A stretch of 64,000 nucleotides of DNA, from contig LBWM01000007.1 of NCBI GenBank assembly GCA_000993615.1, forward strand, positions 1 to 64,000, in the 5' to 3' direction. The notes beneath the pieces were generated by a model. It searched no databases. It saw nothing but the letters and a program-made list of their open reading frames with translations, and had not been told where the DNA came from. The position numbers and the translations under genes are program-made. This DNA is from Candidatus Peregrinibacteria bacterium GW2011_GWF2_39_17. GTDB lineage: Bacteria; Patescibacteriota; Gracilibacteria; UBA1369; UBA12473. Position 1 is the first letter of the stretch; every line of letters begins with the position of its first letter. Shown piece after piece: positions 24,861 to 31,821 of the stretch.

Positions 24861-25925
24861 ATGCTCGCTAAACTCAAACCATTTTACGATGAATTTCAAG
24901 ACATTGAAAAAAGGATGGCTGATTCCGAAGTTATTGCTGATCAAATCCTTTATCAAAAATTGGTACGTCGCCGAATTGAAATTCAGTCACGTGCTGAAAT
25001 TTACAGTGCTTTAAGGAAGATTGAGGATACAATTCAAGAGGCAACTCTTATGCTTGAAGAAGCAACGGATGAGGAAACTAAAGATTTTTTAAAACAAGAA
25101 ATCAGTAAGGCTAGGCATGATCGAGATCATGTTCTTGATGAGGCAAAGGTCGCGCTTTTGACAATTGACCCTAATGACAGTAAAAACTGTATTTTTGAAA
25201 TTAGAGCTGGCGCAGGAGGAGATGAGGCTGCTCTTTTCGCTGAAGAGCTTTCTCGAATGTATTTTCGCTATGCGGAGTCAAAAAATTTTACTCTTACCCT
25301 AATCGCTAAGAGCGAAAATTTAGTAGGTGGGGTTAAAGAAATAATTTTTAAAGTTAGCGGAGTAGGGGCTTATGGTCATTTAAAATATGAATGTGGGGTG
25401 CATCGTGTTCAGAGAGTTCCGGTAACCGAAAGTCAGGGACGGGTTCATACCTCAACTGCAACAGTTGCCGTGCTTCCCGAAGTTGAAGATGTAGATTTTA
25501 AAATTAGAGATGAAGATTTAAGAATTGATGTTTTTAGGGCTGGCGGGCATGGTGGACAATCGGTTAATACCACTGATTCTGCGGTGCGTATCACGCACTT
25601 GCCAACTGGTTTGATTGTTATTTGTCAGGACGAGAAATCGCAACTTAAAAATAAGCTTAAAGCCATGGGAGTATTGCGGTCGCGGCTTTATGCTATTGAG
25701 CAAGAAAAAAGGCAAAAAGAGTTAGGTGAAAAAAGATTAGCCCAAATCGGGACCGGTGACCGGTCTGAAAAAATAAGAACCTACAATTTCCCTCAAGATC
25801 GAGTTACTGATCATCGTATTAAGCAAAGCTGGAGCGATCTTCCTGGTATTATGAATGGTGAAATCGAAGAAATGGTACTTGCTCTTGAAAAAGCAGATCA
25901 AGCAGAGCGCTTAGTTAATGCTTAA
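24861..25925 (+). CDS. prfA: Peptide chain release factor 1
   Basis: 354 residues. GGQ is present ([19 protein letters not shown]) and the codon-recognition region reads [20 protein letters not shown], so the stop-reading tripeptide is PVT, of the RF1 P-x-T type. RF1 reads UAA and UAG. No RF2 gene is in this window, yet UGA ends several genes here, so RF2 should exist elsewhere. The last 11 nt overlap the 3' end of nadB, which is convergent. Confidence 0.95.
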
Positions 25926-27450
25926 GTGTTTTTTTTGTCTTCTCGGGGCTTAAAAGATAGTGACCGCCTAAGGATTTTTTCCTTTTTAACGCGGCTTGAG
26001 TTACTGCTTTGGCTGTGAGTAACATATTTTCGGTTTCTTTTAGTAAAATATTTAGGCCAGGAAAATGGGGGAGTTTGGCTTCCAAAATATCCAGTTTTTG
26101 TTTTGCTTCTTTAAGTCCTTTCGTCGTTCGAATAACTCCGACTTTCTCCCACATAATTTTCCGAATGCGGTATTTAATAGATTTTAGTTTTTTGACTAAT
26201 TTTGGTGAATTTGGTTGCAGCGCTGGTTTTACAAAATGGGGTATTTGATCCATTTTTTCACGTGCCGGAGATCTTAAAATTTGATTACTAAAAACTAAAG
26301 CTTCAAGAAGTGAATTCGAGGCTAAACGATTGGCTCCATGCACTCCTGTCCAGGCTACTTCTCCAAACGCATAAAGATATTTAATTTTTGTTTCGCCATG
26401 TAAATTAGTCATTACTCCTCCACAGCTATAATGAGCCGCAGGCGCTATTGGAATTAAATTTTTGGTGAGATTAAGTTTGTAGCGCAGAAGTCGTTGATAA
26501 ATGCTCGGAAACCTTAATTCAATTTCGTGGCTGGGCTTATGACGAATATCCAAAAAAGCGCCACCATTAAGATCTTCTTGGTAAACACAGCGAGCTACAA
26601 TGTCACGGGGAGCTAAATCCATTTTTGGATTATATTTTTTCATAAAACGCTGTCCTTTACGATCAAGCAAGATAGCACCTTCTCCGCGCAGCGCCTCACT
26701 GAGTAAAAATTTTGTTCGTCCTCCAATTTTGAGTGCCGTGGGGTGAAACTGTAAAAATTCTAGATCCCGACATTTTAAATCTGCCCGCATGGCCATCGCA
26801 ATCCCGTCACCAGTTGAAATTGACGGATTGGTTGTGTAGTAAAAAATTTGCCCCAACCCTCCAGTGGCTAGGACAATACGATTTCCGAAAATATTTTGTA
26901 CATTTTTTTTTCGCACAATTTGAACTCCGTAACAAATTTTCTTAATGGTTAGTAAGTCAATTGCAAAAGTGTGTTCCCATAAGGTTATTTTTGGATTTTG
27001 GGCTACTTTTTTAAGCAAGGTTTTTTCAATGGCTGCTCCGGTATAATCACCAACAAAAGCAATTCGGCGTTCACTATGACCACCTTCGCGCGTTAAAAGT
27101 AGTTTTCCTTGGACATTCGTCGCAAATGGGACACCGAGTTCAATTAAGCGGCAAATCGCTTCTGGGCTATTTTTCACCATAAATTCAACTGCATTGCGTT
27201 TATTATGAAAAGAGCCAGCTTCCATGGTGTCCTGTACATGTTTTTCAAAACGATCTGCCTTATTAAGGACAGCGGCAATCCCTCCTTGGGCTCGATTAGT
27301 GCTCGACTCAATGGATTTTTTTTTGGTAATAATCAATACCCGGCCTTGTTTCGCCGCATTAAGCGCAAAGTTAAGTCCAGCAATCCCTGAACCAATGATA
27401 ATGGTATCAAAGTGGATTTCAGGATCCCTTTTTAATTTCGTCATACTCAT
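25915..27450 (-). CDS. nadB: L-aspartate oxidase
   Basis: 511 residues, FAD-dependent. FAD site [20 protein letters not shown] at the start, [13 protein letters not shown], and the substrate-site region [16 protein letters not shown] are all characteristic. It oxidises aspartate to iminoaspartate, the first step of de novo NAD synthesis. NadA and NadC are not in this window. It overlaps aroK by 4 nt, so it is translated from the aromatic operon, an unusual setting (see findings). The succinate dehydrogenase flavoprotein is a paralogous family, but the [10 protein letters not shown] run favours NadB. Confidence 0.92.
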
Positions 27451-27953
27451 AATTTAATTTTTTTAACCTGAGCTAGGAGTAAATCAAGATTGGGCCAGTG
27501 GTTAATATCATGGATGATGTCTGCCACTTCATAGTACCGCTTTTTGCGTTTTTTCCACAATTCTTCTAACTCCTCCATTGCTGAATTAGCGCCAGTAAGT
27601 GCAGGACGAAGGTAGCTTTTTTCTAAATTGCTTTTTAGGGTCGGTAAGCTACATTCCAAGAGGATCACTAAACCATTTTTCTTGAGCAGTTTGGCGTTTT
27701 CCATATCCATCAATGTCCCTCCTCCGGTTGCGATCACAGTTTGATCTAAAGTAGCGCAATATTTTGTTACTTTTCTTTCCTGTTTGCGGAAATCCTTCCA
27801 TCCCTTTGTATACACAAAATCATTAATAGAAATACCTATTTTTTTCTCAATTTCCTGATCAATATCAATAAAATTCCATTTTAGTTTTTGAGCCAATTCA
27901 CGGCCTAGACTTGTTTTTCCACTGCCACGCATGCCAGTTAAAATGATATTCAT
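27447..27953 (-). CDS. aroK: Shikimate kinase
   Basis: 168 residues. P-loop GMRGSGKTSLGREL, the shikimate-binding DIDQEIEKKIG, and the GGGTLMD loop are all present. It phosphorylates shikimate at O3 with ATP. It lies between aroA (3 nt upstream) and nadB (4-nt overlap). Confidence 0.93.
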   Translation of the reverse strand: MNIILTGMRGSGKTSLGRELAQKLKWNFIDIDQEIEKKIGISINDFVYTKGWKDFRKQERKVTKYCATLDQTVIATGGGTLMDMENAKLLKKNGLVILLECSLPTLKSNLEKSYLRPALTGANSAMEELEELWKKRKKRYYEVADIIHDINHWPNLDLLLAQVKKIKL

Positions 27954-27956
27954 CTT

Positions 27957-29216
27957 TTAGTAGAAAGAAGGAAATGGAGTAATCGGATGAGCCTTACGTA
28001 AGTCTTTCCAAAAATTAGGGTAAGTTTTTTCCACACAGCGCGGATTTTCGATTTTTAATCCTTTTATTCGGCAACCTGCCATACCAAAGCACATGGCTAA
28101 CCGATGATCATTATAGGTTGCCATTTTCGCTCCCCGTAATAATTTTGGATTCCCGTTGATTACTAAGCTATTTTGCTTTTCCGTAGCCGCAATATTTAGC
28201 TTTCTAAGCTCAGTTGATATGGCCTGTAAGCGGTTTGATTCTTTGATTTTTAGAGTGTGGAGCCCTCTTAGTTCGGTTTCACCTTCTGCAAAGGAAGCCA
28301 CCAGAGCTAAGGTCATGGCTCCGTCTGGAAAATCATTAGCTCCAACTATACCGAGGGGAATAAGTTCTGTCGGTCCCGTAACCATAATTCCAGTTTGATC
28401 TGCTTTTACCTTACAGCCCATTTTTTCCAAATAATCCAAGAGTCGAACATCTGGCTGAAGACTGTTTCGAGAAATTCCCCTAGTTTTGATAGTTTTACCA
28501 GTAATAGCGGCCAAACCCCAAAAATAGCTGGCACTGGAGGCGTCAGCTTCAATCTCAAGTGTGGTTGGTTCATAGGATTGATGGGGAATTTTAAAAGTGT
28601 GGGAATTTGGAGTCGTAATATTTTGTATAAAAAATTTGTTCATTATTTGAGCTGTTATCTCTAAATAAGGCCTGGAATTTACTTTTCCTTTAACTTGAAT
28701 TTCTAGCCCCTGCGCTAACAAAGGAGCGAGCATCATTAGGGCAGAAATATATTGGCTACTATTTTGTCCTTTAATTTCCACTCTATTGTGCTTAATTTGG
28801 TGGCCATAAATCTTAAGAGGAGGACATCCATTTTGAGATTCGATTCTCACCCCTAAGGCTTTTAGGGCATCTAACAGATCTTTGATAGGACGTTCCCTCA
28901 TGCGAGCATTGCCATCTAAATAACTTCTAAACTTTTGATTCGCTAAGATTGCGGTTAGGAAACGCATACTTGTTCCAGAATTTTCCAAATAAAGCGGTTG
29001 TTTTGGCCGTACTAATCGCCCTGAACTAATAATGTGCAAGTCATCTTCCTCAACATTAATTATCACGCCCAAGGCTTTTAGCGCGTCCATCATTGCTACG
29101 GTATCATCACTCCATAGAAAATGACGCAAAATTGTTGTTCCATTTGCTAGTGCGGCAATTAGAAGCGCGCGGTTACTAATACTTTTCGAGCCGGGGATTT
29201 TAATAGTAGGGATCAT
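27957..29216 (-). CDS. aroA: 3-phosphoshikimate 1-carboxyvinyltransferase (EPSP synthase)
   Basis: 419 residues, normal length. The substrate-site motif is IPGSKSISNRALLIAALANG at the N-terminus; LENSGTSMRFLTAILA near residue 78, RERPIKDLLDAL, and YNDHRLAMCFG near 375 are the other signatures. It joins shikimate-3-phosphate and PEP. It follows aroB by 97 nt. Confidence 0.95.
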   Translation of the reverse strand: MIPTIKIPGSKSISNRALLIAALANGTTILRHFLWSDDTVAMMDALKALGVIINVEEDDLHIISSGRLVRPKQPLYLENSGTSMRFLTAILANQKFRSYLDGNARMRERPIKDLLDALKALGVRIESQNGCPPLKIYGHQIKHNRVEIKGQNSSQYISALMMLAPLLAQGLEIQVKGKVNSRPYLEITAQIMNKFFIQNITTPNSHTFKIPHQSYEPTTLEIEADASSASYFWGLAAITGKTIKTRGISRNSLQPDVRLLDYLEKMGCKVKADQTGIMVTGPTELIPLGIVGANDFPDGAMTLALVASFAEGETELRGLHTLKIKESNRLQAISTELRKLNIAATEKQNSLVINGNPKLLRGAKMATYNDHRLAMCFGMAGCRIKGLKIENPRCVEKTYPNFWKDLRKAHPITPFPSFY

Positions 29217-29313: not shown

Positions 29314-30405
29314 CTAAAAGCGAAGTAGGACAGATTGTACTTCATTTTCAGTCACGTCGTTGACAACTATAGGGCGACCAGGGCGTTTTAATAAAGTGAA
29401 AGTGTAAGTATTAAGTGCAGAATTTTTTTTGTCATGTTTAAGTGCCTGAATAATTGGCTGACGATCAATGCTGCCCGGTAGTTTTGTCGGTAAATGGAGT
29501 GTTTTTAAAAGTTCCTCTATTCTTTGTTGGTGTTTTTGGGCGAGTAAATTGCGTTCCCGAGCTAAACAATTTTCAAGATTCATCCCAATAGCCACTGCTT
29601 CGCCATGATTAAGTCGGTATCCGCTGGCATGCTCAATCGCATGTCCAATGCTGTGTCCGTAATTAAGCAACATCCGTAAATTATTCTCTTGTTCATCATT
29701 TTGAACAATTTTAGCTTTAACTTTGCAAGAACGTACTAGTAATTCAGTTATTGTTGTGGTGTGCCCATCCAGCGCTTTTTCTGGAAATTTACGGAGAATT
29801 TTTAAGATTTTTTTATCCGCCAAAAGTCCATGCTTAACAATTTCTGCCAATCCATTACGTATTTGGCGTTTAGATAAAGTGCTCAGAAGTTGCGGGTCAA
29901 TATAAACCCTTTTCGGTTGAATAAAACTTCCTATCAAGTTTTTCCCCAGTAGTAAATCTACTCCGGTTTTCCCTCCAATGCTTGCATCACACATGGCTAA
30001 TAAAGTGGTCGGAATTTGGATAAAAGAAATGCCGCGCATATAAATTGAAGCTACAAACCCCGCCACATCACCAACCACTCCTCCACCCAGTGCAATTATG
30101 CAGCTTTGACGGTTATGTCCCAGTTGAACCATTTGCCCAACTAGTTTTTCCACGGTGGCTAAATTTTTATTTTTTTCTCCGGCTTGGAAAGAAAGAAGAG
30201 TAGTTTGCATGTTTAATTTACGCATTGCTCCCTGGAGTTCTTCTCCATAAAGTTTTCGGAGATTGGTGTCTGTAATAAGACAATATTTAGTGGCTAGGAC
30301 TTGCTTAGCGATGTCACCTGCTATTTGTGAAAATAATCCGGGCTCAATGAAAAGATCATAGGAATTATTAATTTTTTTCTTAAGTTTAAGCGAAATTATT
30401 TTCAT
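29314..30405 (-). CDS. aroB: 3-dehydroquinate synthase
   Basis: 363 residues. The NAD-binding run is IALGGGVVGDVAGFVASIYM, then PTTLLAMCDASIGGKTGVDL, and metal-binding NYGHSIGHAIEH and HGEAVAIGM. It converts DAHP to 3-dehydroquinate. It starts 42 nt after aroF. Dehydroquinase, shikimate dehydrogenase and chorismate synthase are not in this window. Confidence 0.95.
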   Translation of the reverse strand: MKIISLKLKKKINNSYDLFIEPGLFSQIAGDIAKQVLATKYCLITDTNLRKLYGEELQGAMRKLNMQTTLLSFQAGEKNKNLATVEKLVGQMVQLGHNRQSCIIALGGGVVGDVAGFVASIYMRGISFIQIPTTLLAMCDASIGGKTGVDLLLGKNLIGSFIQPKRVYIDPQLLSTLSKRQIRNGLAEIVKHGLLADKKILKILRKFPEKALDGHTTTITELLVRSCKVKAKIVQNDEQENNLRMLLNYGHSIGHAIEHASGYRLNHGEAVAIGMNLENCLARERNLLAQKHQQRIEELLKTLHLPTKLPGSIDRQPIIQALKHDKKNSALNTYTFTLLKRPGRPIVVNDVTENEVQSVLLRF

Positions 30406-30447: not shown

Positions 30448-31461
30448 CTAAATGCTCCTGCCAATAGCCTTAGTAATTGCTTTAATTTCCTCCATCATGG
30501 GCATTAGCATGTCTGGTGTGATGGACTGATCACCATCCGAAAGTGCTTCATCAGGATGAGGATGCATTTCCACTATTAAACCATCTGCGCCAGCCGCAAT
30601 CGCAGCCCTGGATACTGCTGGGACCAAAGTTCTTTTTCCAGTTGCATGACTGGGATCAACTACCACTGGCAAATGGCTTAATTCCTTAAGTAAAGGAACA
30701 ACGCTAATATCAAGCGTATTCCTAGTTTCGGTTTCAAAAGTACGAATACCCCGTTCGCATAAAATTACTTCTGAATTACCTTCTGACATAATATATTCAG
30801 CCGCAAGTAAAAATTCCTTAATTGTACTACTTAAGCCTCTTTTTAAAAGAATTGGCTTTTTGGTTTTCCCCACTTCTTTGAGAAGATTAAAATTCTGCAT
30901 ATTGCGTGCTCCAATTTGTAAAATATCAGCGTATTTTGAAATTAAAGGAACATCTCTCGGGTCCATTACTTCGGTCACTACGATCATGTTGTAGGGAGCG
31001 GCAGCTTGCTTAAGAAGTTTTAGCCCTTTTTCGCCTAGACCTTGAAAGGAATAAGGCGTAGTTCTTGGCTTAAATGCTCCTCCTCGCAAAATTCGAATAC
31101 CAGCCTTATGAATAATAGCGGCCGATTCTTCGATTTGCTTTTTGCTTTCAACACTACATGGGCCAACCATCATTACTATTTTATCTCCCCCAATTTCCAC
31201 ATCTTTGATTTTAATTATCGTATTTTCCCACTTGGTTTCTCTCGAAGCCAATTTGTAAGGTTGTAGTACCGGCATAACTTTACTAACGCCAGGTAAGGAG
31301 CTCAGATGGCTAACATCCAAAATGCGTTCATCGCCAATTACCGCAATGACAACGCGTTCAGTTCCAATCAAGGGCATTGGTTGTAGATTTTGCCCTCTGA
31401 GTTCATCAATAATGCGCTGAACTTGTTTTTCTGGGGCGTGGGCCTTCATAACAATAATCAT
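30448..31461 (-). CDS. aroF: DAHP synthase with N-terminal regulatory domain
   Basis: 337 residues. Residues about 1-75 form a small ferredoxin-like/ACT-like domain; the TIM barrel follows with MVGPCSVESKKQIEESA, LRGGAFKPRTTPYSFQG and VDPSHATGKR. This is the Thermotoga-like class in which the N-terminal domain mediates feedback inhibition by Tyr or Phe (established family knowledge). It condenses PEP and erythrose-4-phosphate, the committed step. The first ATG is at 31461; an ATG four codons later is possible. It is preceded by an aromatic leader-peptide attenuator, so both transcript level and enzyme activity may respond to aromatic amino acids. Confidence 0.93.
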   Translation of the reverse strand: MIIVMKAHAPEKQVQRIIDELRGQNLQPMPLIGTERVVIAVIGDERILDVSHLSSLPGVSKVMPVLQPYKLASRETKWENTIIKIKDVEIGGDKIVMMVGPCSVESKKQIEESAAIIHKAGIRILRGGAFKPRTTPYSFQGLGEKGLKLLKQAAAPYNMIVVTEVMDPRDVPLISKYADILQIGARNMQNFNLLKEVGKTKKPILLKRGLSSTIKEFLLAAEYIMSEGNSEVILCERGIRTFETETRNTLDISVVPLLKELSHLPVVVDPSHATGKRTLVPAVSRAAIAAGADGLIVEMHPHPDEALSDGDQSITPDMLMPMMEEIKAITKAIGRSI

Positions 31462-31625
31462 AGATTTGGAAGTTATAAGATTTGGAGAAAGATTGAGTTT
31501 AGCTTTGCCAGGGATAAAGACAGGATCTAGCGTAATTCATTGCGTCGACATCCGGCCTGATATTTATTTGGTGGACACGATTTTTCCGTTTTGATGTTAA
31601 CATGGGTGAACGGGTTAAGAAAAAT

Positions 31626-31653
31626 AAAAAAATCCCCTCGAGACCGTAGGGGA
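31626..31653 (-). terminator. Attenuator terminator upstream of aroF
   Basis: Minus strand: TCCCCT pairs with AGGGGA (plus coordinates 31633-31653) and is followed by seven Ts (31626-31632). It lies about 36 nt after the leader ORF stop and 165 nt before aroF. A competing helix GGAGT (31683-31687)/ACTCC (31651-31655) shares the first terminator arm and could act as antiterminator. Confidence 0.72.
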
Positions 31654-31688
31654 GTGTTATAATTTATGACTTTCAAACTAAAACTCCT

Positions 31689-31781
31689 TTACGGCCTTTT
31701 CGAAAAATAAAAGTAAAACCAAAACTCTCCATTTATTAAGAAGTTTTTTTTCTGGCTTGTTTGGAGAGCTAATAAATTCAT
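31689..31781 (-). CDS. Aromatic leader peptide of the aro operon
   Basis: A 30-codon ORF, ATG at 31779-31781, TAA at 31689-31691. Residues 20-26 read Phe-Trp-Phe-Tyr-Phe-Tyr-Phe (codons about 31704-31724), seven aromatic residues in a row. A 7-bp helix, minus-strand CTCTCCA (31762-31768) with TGGAGAG (31725-31731), lies inside the ORF just before the aromatic codons, as a pause hairpin would. A downstream terminator and the aroF gene complete the classical leader-peptide attenuator layout seen for pheA, trp and his operons. No direct evidence of translation exists, but this run occurring by chance in exactly this position is very unlikely. Confidence 0.82.
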   Translation of the reverse strand: MNLLALQTSQKKNFLINGEFWFYFYFSKRP

Positions 31782-31812
31782 AATGGACAATGACAATAAA
31801 GATGCTAAGCAC

Positions 31813-31821
31813 AGCATAACA
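31813..31821 (-). promoter_or_regulatory. Extended -10 promoter of the aro leader
   Basis: Minus strand: TG, one base, then TATGCT (plus coordinates 31813-31818), about 31 nt before the leader ATG. No good -35 is visible, as is common for extended -10 promoters. Confidence 0.45.

Follow-up and report, generated by a model that had tools for sequence, protein, structure and literature searches.

The aroF operon of a member of the Patescibacteria is preceded by a short open reading frame (ORF) with a run of aromatic codons, an intrinsic terminator and an antiterminator that competes with it, and leaders of this kind recur upstream of aroF at 52 loci from 18 families and several classes of the phylum. 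From this recurrence and from the modelled behaviour of the alternative structures, which switch as the original prediction had proposed, we regard classical ribosome-mediated transcription attenuation at the aroF leader as very probable. All coordinates below refer to the window, the whole stretch of 64,000 nucleotides that was analysed, and all features lie on its minus strand.

The leader ORF (31689-31781), predicted at 30 codons, is present at that length, encodes MNLLALQTSQKKNFLINGEFWFYFYFSKRP and ends with the stop codon TAA at 31691-31689; an in-frame ATG further upstream could lengthen it by 12 codons. Its C-terminus, GEFWFYFYFSKRP, that is F-W-F-Y-F-Y-F-S-K-R-P-stop, contains the expected seven consecutive aromatic codons (codons 20-26, 31704-31724), which sequence and state folding mark as the control codons. 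Downstream follow, in the predicted order, aroF (DAHP synthase, 30448-31461; NF006421, TIGR01361), aroB (3-dehydroquinate synthase, 29314-30405; TIGR01357), aroA (EPSP synthase, 27957-29216; TIGR01356), an aroK/aroL-like shikimate kinase gene (27447-27953) and nadB (L-aspartate oxidase, 25915-27450; TIGR00551). Four of these pass the NCBIfam cut-offs, while aroK falls below them and is clear from its similarity to shikimate kinases. The final gene of the operon, nadB, overlaps aroK by four bases; NAD synthesis would be co-regulated with aromatic synthesis. The host genome measures 1.3 Mb and is 97.9% complete; its description as CPR-like was right, because a genome of the same order carries the name Candidatus Peregrinibacteria. 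In genome G000 chorismate synthase (PF01264) was not found, and aroF, aroB, aroA, aroK, trpE and prephenate dehydratase (PDT) are present; the gap reflects either the assembly or a real absence.

A search for aroF covered 89 genomes from the order, 192 from the class and 380 from the phylum, and the DNA upstream of the gene was collected. A fixed rule, which calls a leader when at least five of nine residues near the C-terminus are Phe, Trp or Tyr and a terminator lies 5-90 nt past the stop codon, recovered leader and terminator at 32 of 60 loci of the same order and at 12 of 25 from other orders of the class (44 of 85 together), as well as at 8 of 12 loci in other classes of the phylum. In the controls it returned one of 85 reverse strands and none of 255 dinucleotide shuffles; the aromatic leader is far beyond chance. 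Some, not all, of the 28 same-order loci (out of 60) that fail the strict rule are contig ends, paralogues or cases in which aroF is not the first gene. Every one of the 52 leaders contains both Phe and Tyr, 31 additionally contain Trp (UGG), five to eight residues of the nine-residue stretch are aromatic, and the terminator mostly lies 25-36 nt from the stop codon. Apart from the aromatic run the peptides drift between relatives: MNLLALQTSQKKNFLINGEFWFYFYFSKRP of the window and the C-terminal part of its nearest relative, NSWNFSYFYYFTLTS, have almost only that run in common, at 74% AroF identity. An aromatic-rich ORF kept while its other codons drift is what the original prediction had expected of an alignment, and the retention of the short ORF and its aromatic run at this position in relatives is the opposite of a refutation. 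In other phyla the rule found leader and terminator before aroF at 5 of 79 loci; those of a member of the Calditrichota, of Planctomicrobium and of an Acidobacteriota MAG look real, and the arrangement is therefore not confined to Patescibacteria.

A sigma-70 scan of the window returned no promoter above chance and none that was convincing. Many relatives (family f24 and others) possess a good -35/-10 promoter whose -10 element precedes the leader ATG by 8-10 nt, which would make the leader mRNA leaderless or almost leaderless; in family f14 this spacing is mostly 22-26 nt. No Shine-Dalgarno sequence was seen by eye at the leader starts. The motif TAACC..AAAAA recurs right before the ATG of aroF, and of a second short ORF discussed below, in many loci of the order (e.g. 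L009, L018, L114 and L119), at the place expected for a Shine-Dalgarno sequence, and may represent a non-canonical signal for initiation in this group.

The terminator announced for the region after the leader stop exists (31626-31653, TCCCCTACGGTCTCGAGGGGA followed by TTTTTTT): a hairpin at 31653-31633 and seven T at 31632-31626, with -11.6 kcal/mol and with equivalents in relatives. A simple terminator scan of the window did not pick up this hairpin. Folding places the 5' arm of the antiterminator, region 2 (GGCCGTAAAGGAGT, 31683-31696), across the leader stop codon, and region 3 (ACTCCCCTACGGTC, 31642-31655) serves both helices, being also the 5' arm of the terminator. The GGAGT/ACTCC helix of the original prediction does compete with the terminator and share its arm, but it is merely part of the antiterminator, as CCGTA (31694-31690) pairs with TACGG (31648-31644) and extends it. 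The resulting duplex of CCGUA and GGAGU with ACUCC and UACGG is stronger than GGAGT/ACTCC alone, and the full antiterminator of the window, its loop hairpin included, reaches -19.6 kcal/mol. Folded without constraints, the leader has a minimum-energy structure that comprises this antiterminator and a hairpin within the ORF (31724-31769, 31769-31762 with 31731-31724). A pause-type helix had been claimed just before the aromatic codons; the hairpin is there, and a role as pause hairpin is possible on the modelled structure, to which the comparison across loci lends weak support.

The switch itself was examined by folding each leader in successive states, in which the ribosome footprint, reaching from the start of the A-site codon 17 nt upstream and 13 nt downstream, was kept unpairable; this is an equilibrium and not a cotranscriptional calculation. 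A ribosome placed at the stop codon gives a terminator probability above 0.5 in 48 of the 52 leaders (median 0.96), and one placed at the first aromatic codon gives a value below 0.5 in 47 of 52 (median 0.00). Some loci (L015, L023, L024 and L167) fail to switch as expected. The outcome depends on region 2: once this is shuffled, the stalled state has a terminator probability below 0.5 in only 99 of 612 cases, versus 46 of 51 for the real sequences, and the median rises to 0.96, which abolishes the switch. The duplex of regions 2 and 3 averages -13.8 kcal/mol across loci, and in 59% of them it falls within the top 5% when compared with partners taken from other families, a control that is conservative because many loci share GAGG/CCTC. 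In the model of the window, stalling at codons 20-24 yields the antiterminator, codon 25 is intermediate and codon 26 yields the terminator; the change thus falls between codons 24 and 26, and sensing is possible at five or six of the seven aromatic codons, counted from the first. On this point the original prediction needs amendment, the final one or two being too near to region 2 to sense.

The window differs from the E. coli leaders when no ribosome is present. In the ribosome-free state the terminator probability of the window is 0.00, so that the operon is predicted to be on, and only 15 of the 52 leaders are predicted to terminate, in contrast to E. coli pheL (0.97) and trpL (0.96), which are off. 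Since the E. coli leaders terminate in this state and the window and 37 of the 52 leaders do not, the family may be without a working anti-antiterminator. Support across loci for the hairpin within the ORF as such a 1:2 structure is weak, and the ribosome-free state is predicted on. Pairing of the start-codon side (region 1) with region 2, striking by eye in several loci, is likewise not claimed, as it barely beats cross-locus pairs and start-stop pairing in general lies little above such controls. Transcripts that are not translated are accordingly predicted to escape termination.

The attenuation that we favour would proceed as follows. RNA polymerase would start upstream of 31781, with a ribosome trailing on the leader ORF. 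When charged tRNA-Phe, tRNA-Tyr and tRNA-Trp are plentiful, the ribosome would reach the stop codon and cover region 2; region 3 would therefore pair with region 4 and transcription would stop at about 31626. When any of the three is scarce, the ribosome would stall on codons 20-25 and leave region 2 free to pair with region 3, the terminator would not form, and aroF-aroB-aroA-aroK-nadB would be transcribed. The ORF, its conservation, the terminator, the competing helix and the predicted switch are established by computation. We infer that ribosomes translate the leader and stall on it, that transcription ends prematurely, and that the operon responds to each of the amino acids and is switched on by starvation for Phe, Tyr or Trp.

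A second short ORF, which we call uORF2 (31499-31603, MLTSKRKNRVHQINIRPDVDAMNYARSCLYPWQS), lies between the terminator and aroF of the window, ends in NYARSCLYPWQS and has its stop codon 37 nt ahead of the start codon of aroF. At 19 of the 34 loci with room for it there is an ORF that begins with ATG, has 14 codons or more and carries [L/A/S]-Tyr near its stop, with C-termini such as CLYRLW, YLYRR, WLYRR, KICLY, ICAYR and YSYQN; it occurs in 2% of shuffles, a figure that is optimistic because the motif was defined after looking, and on no reverse strand. The window and 13 other loci carry the form [L/A/S]-Tyr-[Arg/Gln]. The ORF also precedes aroF in family f20 of the class, where the aromatic leader was not found, and in the sets examined no case was found ahead of trpE, hisG or PDT, or ahead of aroF in other phyla. 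In all order-level cases listed the Leu codon of the Leu-Tyr type is CTT, and a constraint at the nucleotide level is therefore possible. We recognise uORF2 here as a new conserved short ORF and possibly an arrest peptide or a coupling ORF.

Two other readings of the locus build on this ORF. In the first, the control would have two tiers: an attenuator that senses aromatic tRNAs, has no anti-antiterminator and is on unless the ribosome gets to the stop codon, followed by uORF2, whose conserved C-terminus of the form [L/A/S]Y[R/Q] would serve as an arrest peptide that senses a metabolite or Tyr and acts on the translation of aroF. We hold this combination to be rather unlikely. Alternatively, attenuation could act mainly on translation or through Rho-dependent termination, by way of the ORF between terminator and aroF. 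The conservation of uORF2 against the shuffles, and its end 19-58 nt before aroF in the order, would suit such a role, but a terminator with T-run and an antiterminator accompany nearly all leaders, even those without room for uORF2, which makes this reading very improbable.

Attenuation through the aromatic codons can be compared with the upstream DNA of other amino acid operons. At 30 same-order loci of aroC (chorismate synthase) there is no convincing aromatic leader, two weak hits being judged chance. Before trpE, 7 of 30 same-order loci have leaders with Trp only (e.g. NWWW, WWWTR, KNWW; the seven carry WW, WWW or WSWHW), each with a terminator, and five of the seven switch in state folding. 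The sole match before PDT (pheA) that looks real comes from a genome (G046) in which PDT follows DAHP synthase. At locus L213 a leader-like ORF with nine aromatic residues out of nine (YWFYYYYFY) lies 989-878 nt upstream of the PDT match, before a DAHP synthase-PDT cluster. With no convincing leader before aroC, trpE leaders reading Trp only and PDT matched once beside DAHP synthase, the codon content thus follows the pathway. No convincing Leu leader was found before leuA. Apparent His-rich ORFs at his operons were rejected as leaders, being parts of what we take to be a TrpR/YerC-like protein gene. At four loci this small gene lies next to hisG on the upstream side and is itself followed by a terminator; by analogy with HisR of Gram-positive bacteria (PMC9413887) it may be a regulator of his genes. 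Second, divergent DAHP synthase copies occur at seven loci (L311-L317), and two of these copies share a contig with trpE, at a distance of a few kb; recoding of an in-frame TGA in these copies was considered and rejected, since a normal TGA stop had been read through by the search.

The change to WWW before trpE also speaks against the view that stalling comes, in the manner of TnaC, from the nascent aromatic peptide binding free aromatic amino acids inside the exit tunnel and not from tRNA starvation. A core of the form -F/W-x-F-Y-F-Y- is common to the leaders, as such an arrest peptide might have, but order and spacing of the residues are free (FWFYFYF, FFGFYF, WAYFYF, AFAYSFFYF) and the aromatic class alone is kept. 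Moreover, stalling at high amino acid levels would raise a biosynthetic operon at a time when its product is plentiful, which runs counter to the direction of this terminator and antiterminator, and we consider the explanation very improbable. That RNA or a protein binds the U-rich stretch, or that this stretch arose by coincidence in an AT-rich genome, with a hairpin that does no more than end an unrelated short transcript, is scarcely credible: the cores are indeed rich in UUU and UAU, but the reading frame is respected (aromatic fraction of the core 0.48 in frame, 0.17-0.21 in the other frames, 0.20 with shuffled bases), UGG occurs in 31 of the 52 leaders, the synonymous codons UUC and UAC are common, and neither the shuffles nor the aroC upstream DNA of the same genomes contain the leader.

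Ribosome-mediated attenuation by leader peptides is well known from other bacteria. By position and logic, the nearest known case is the AroR-aroF attenuator of Corynebacterium glutamicum, predicted in PMC4046766, in which an aromatic leader peptide likewise lies straight before an aroF-type DAHP synthase gene. According to the account of Neshat et al. (2014) cited in PMC11802643, stalling at its Phe-Tyr-Phe enhances transcription of the operon, with a reported response to Phe and not to Tyr. In contrast to AroR, the leaders described here belong to a different phylum and contain five to eight aromatic residues per nine, most often with Trp. With E. coli pheL-pheA and trpL-trpE they have in common the short ORF that carries regulatory codons, the terminator and an antiterminator competing with it; pheL, our positive control, shows a stall-dependent switch in the model as the window does, whereas trpL gives only a weak dip. 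Each of these two reads a single amino acid, unlike the mixed Phe/Tyr/Trp leaders. The window also differs from the Phe and Trp leaders of Rfam: a scan at gathering score matched no leader family, these included, and returned four tRNAs only. Leader peptide attenuators of Actinobacteria, found by comparative genomics (PMC1262725), and leaderless short ORFs of mycobacteria, whose leaders are translated without a normal ribosome binding site (PMC4633059), follow the same logic in other pathways and another phylum, and a near-leaderless start is suggested for the relatives, not for the window. A survey published in Genome Biology in 2010 (PMC2965389) recorded leader-peptide systems in Proteobacteria, Actinobacteria and, new there, Firmicutes only, and a review of Patescibacteria (PMC11665869) does not mention attenuation. 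The original prediction knew of no described case in the CPR, and our search for attenuation or leader peptides in Patescibacteria, CPR and Peregrinibacteria, in literature mostly outside subscription journals and preprints, found none, although an earlier report may exist.

The mechanism is classical, and the notable part is its phylum-wide spread. Amino acid synthesis is usually said to be absent from Patescibacteria, and to our knowledge little is known of their gene regulation. Those members that do make aromatic amino acids would control the pathway by a mechanism that needs no regulatory protein. The leaders form a natural series, mixed Phe/Tyr/Trp before aroF and WWW before trpE, in which codon specificity tracks the position in the pathway, and for this uncultured group they would provide a collection of small sensors that is ready to use.
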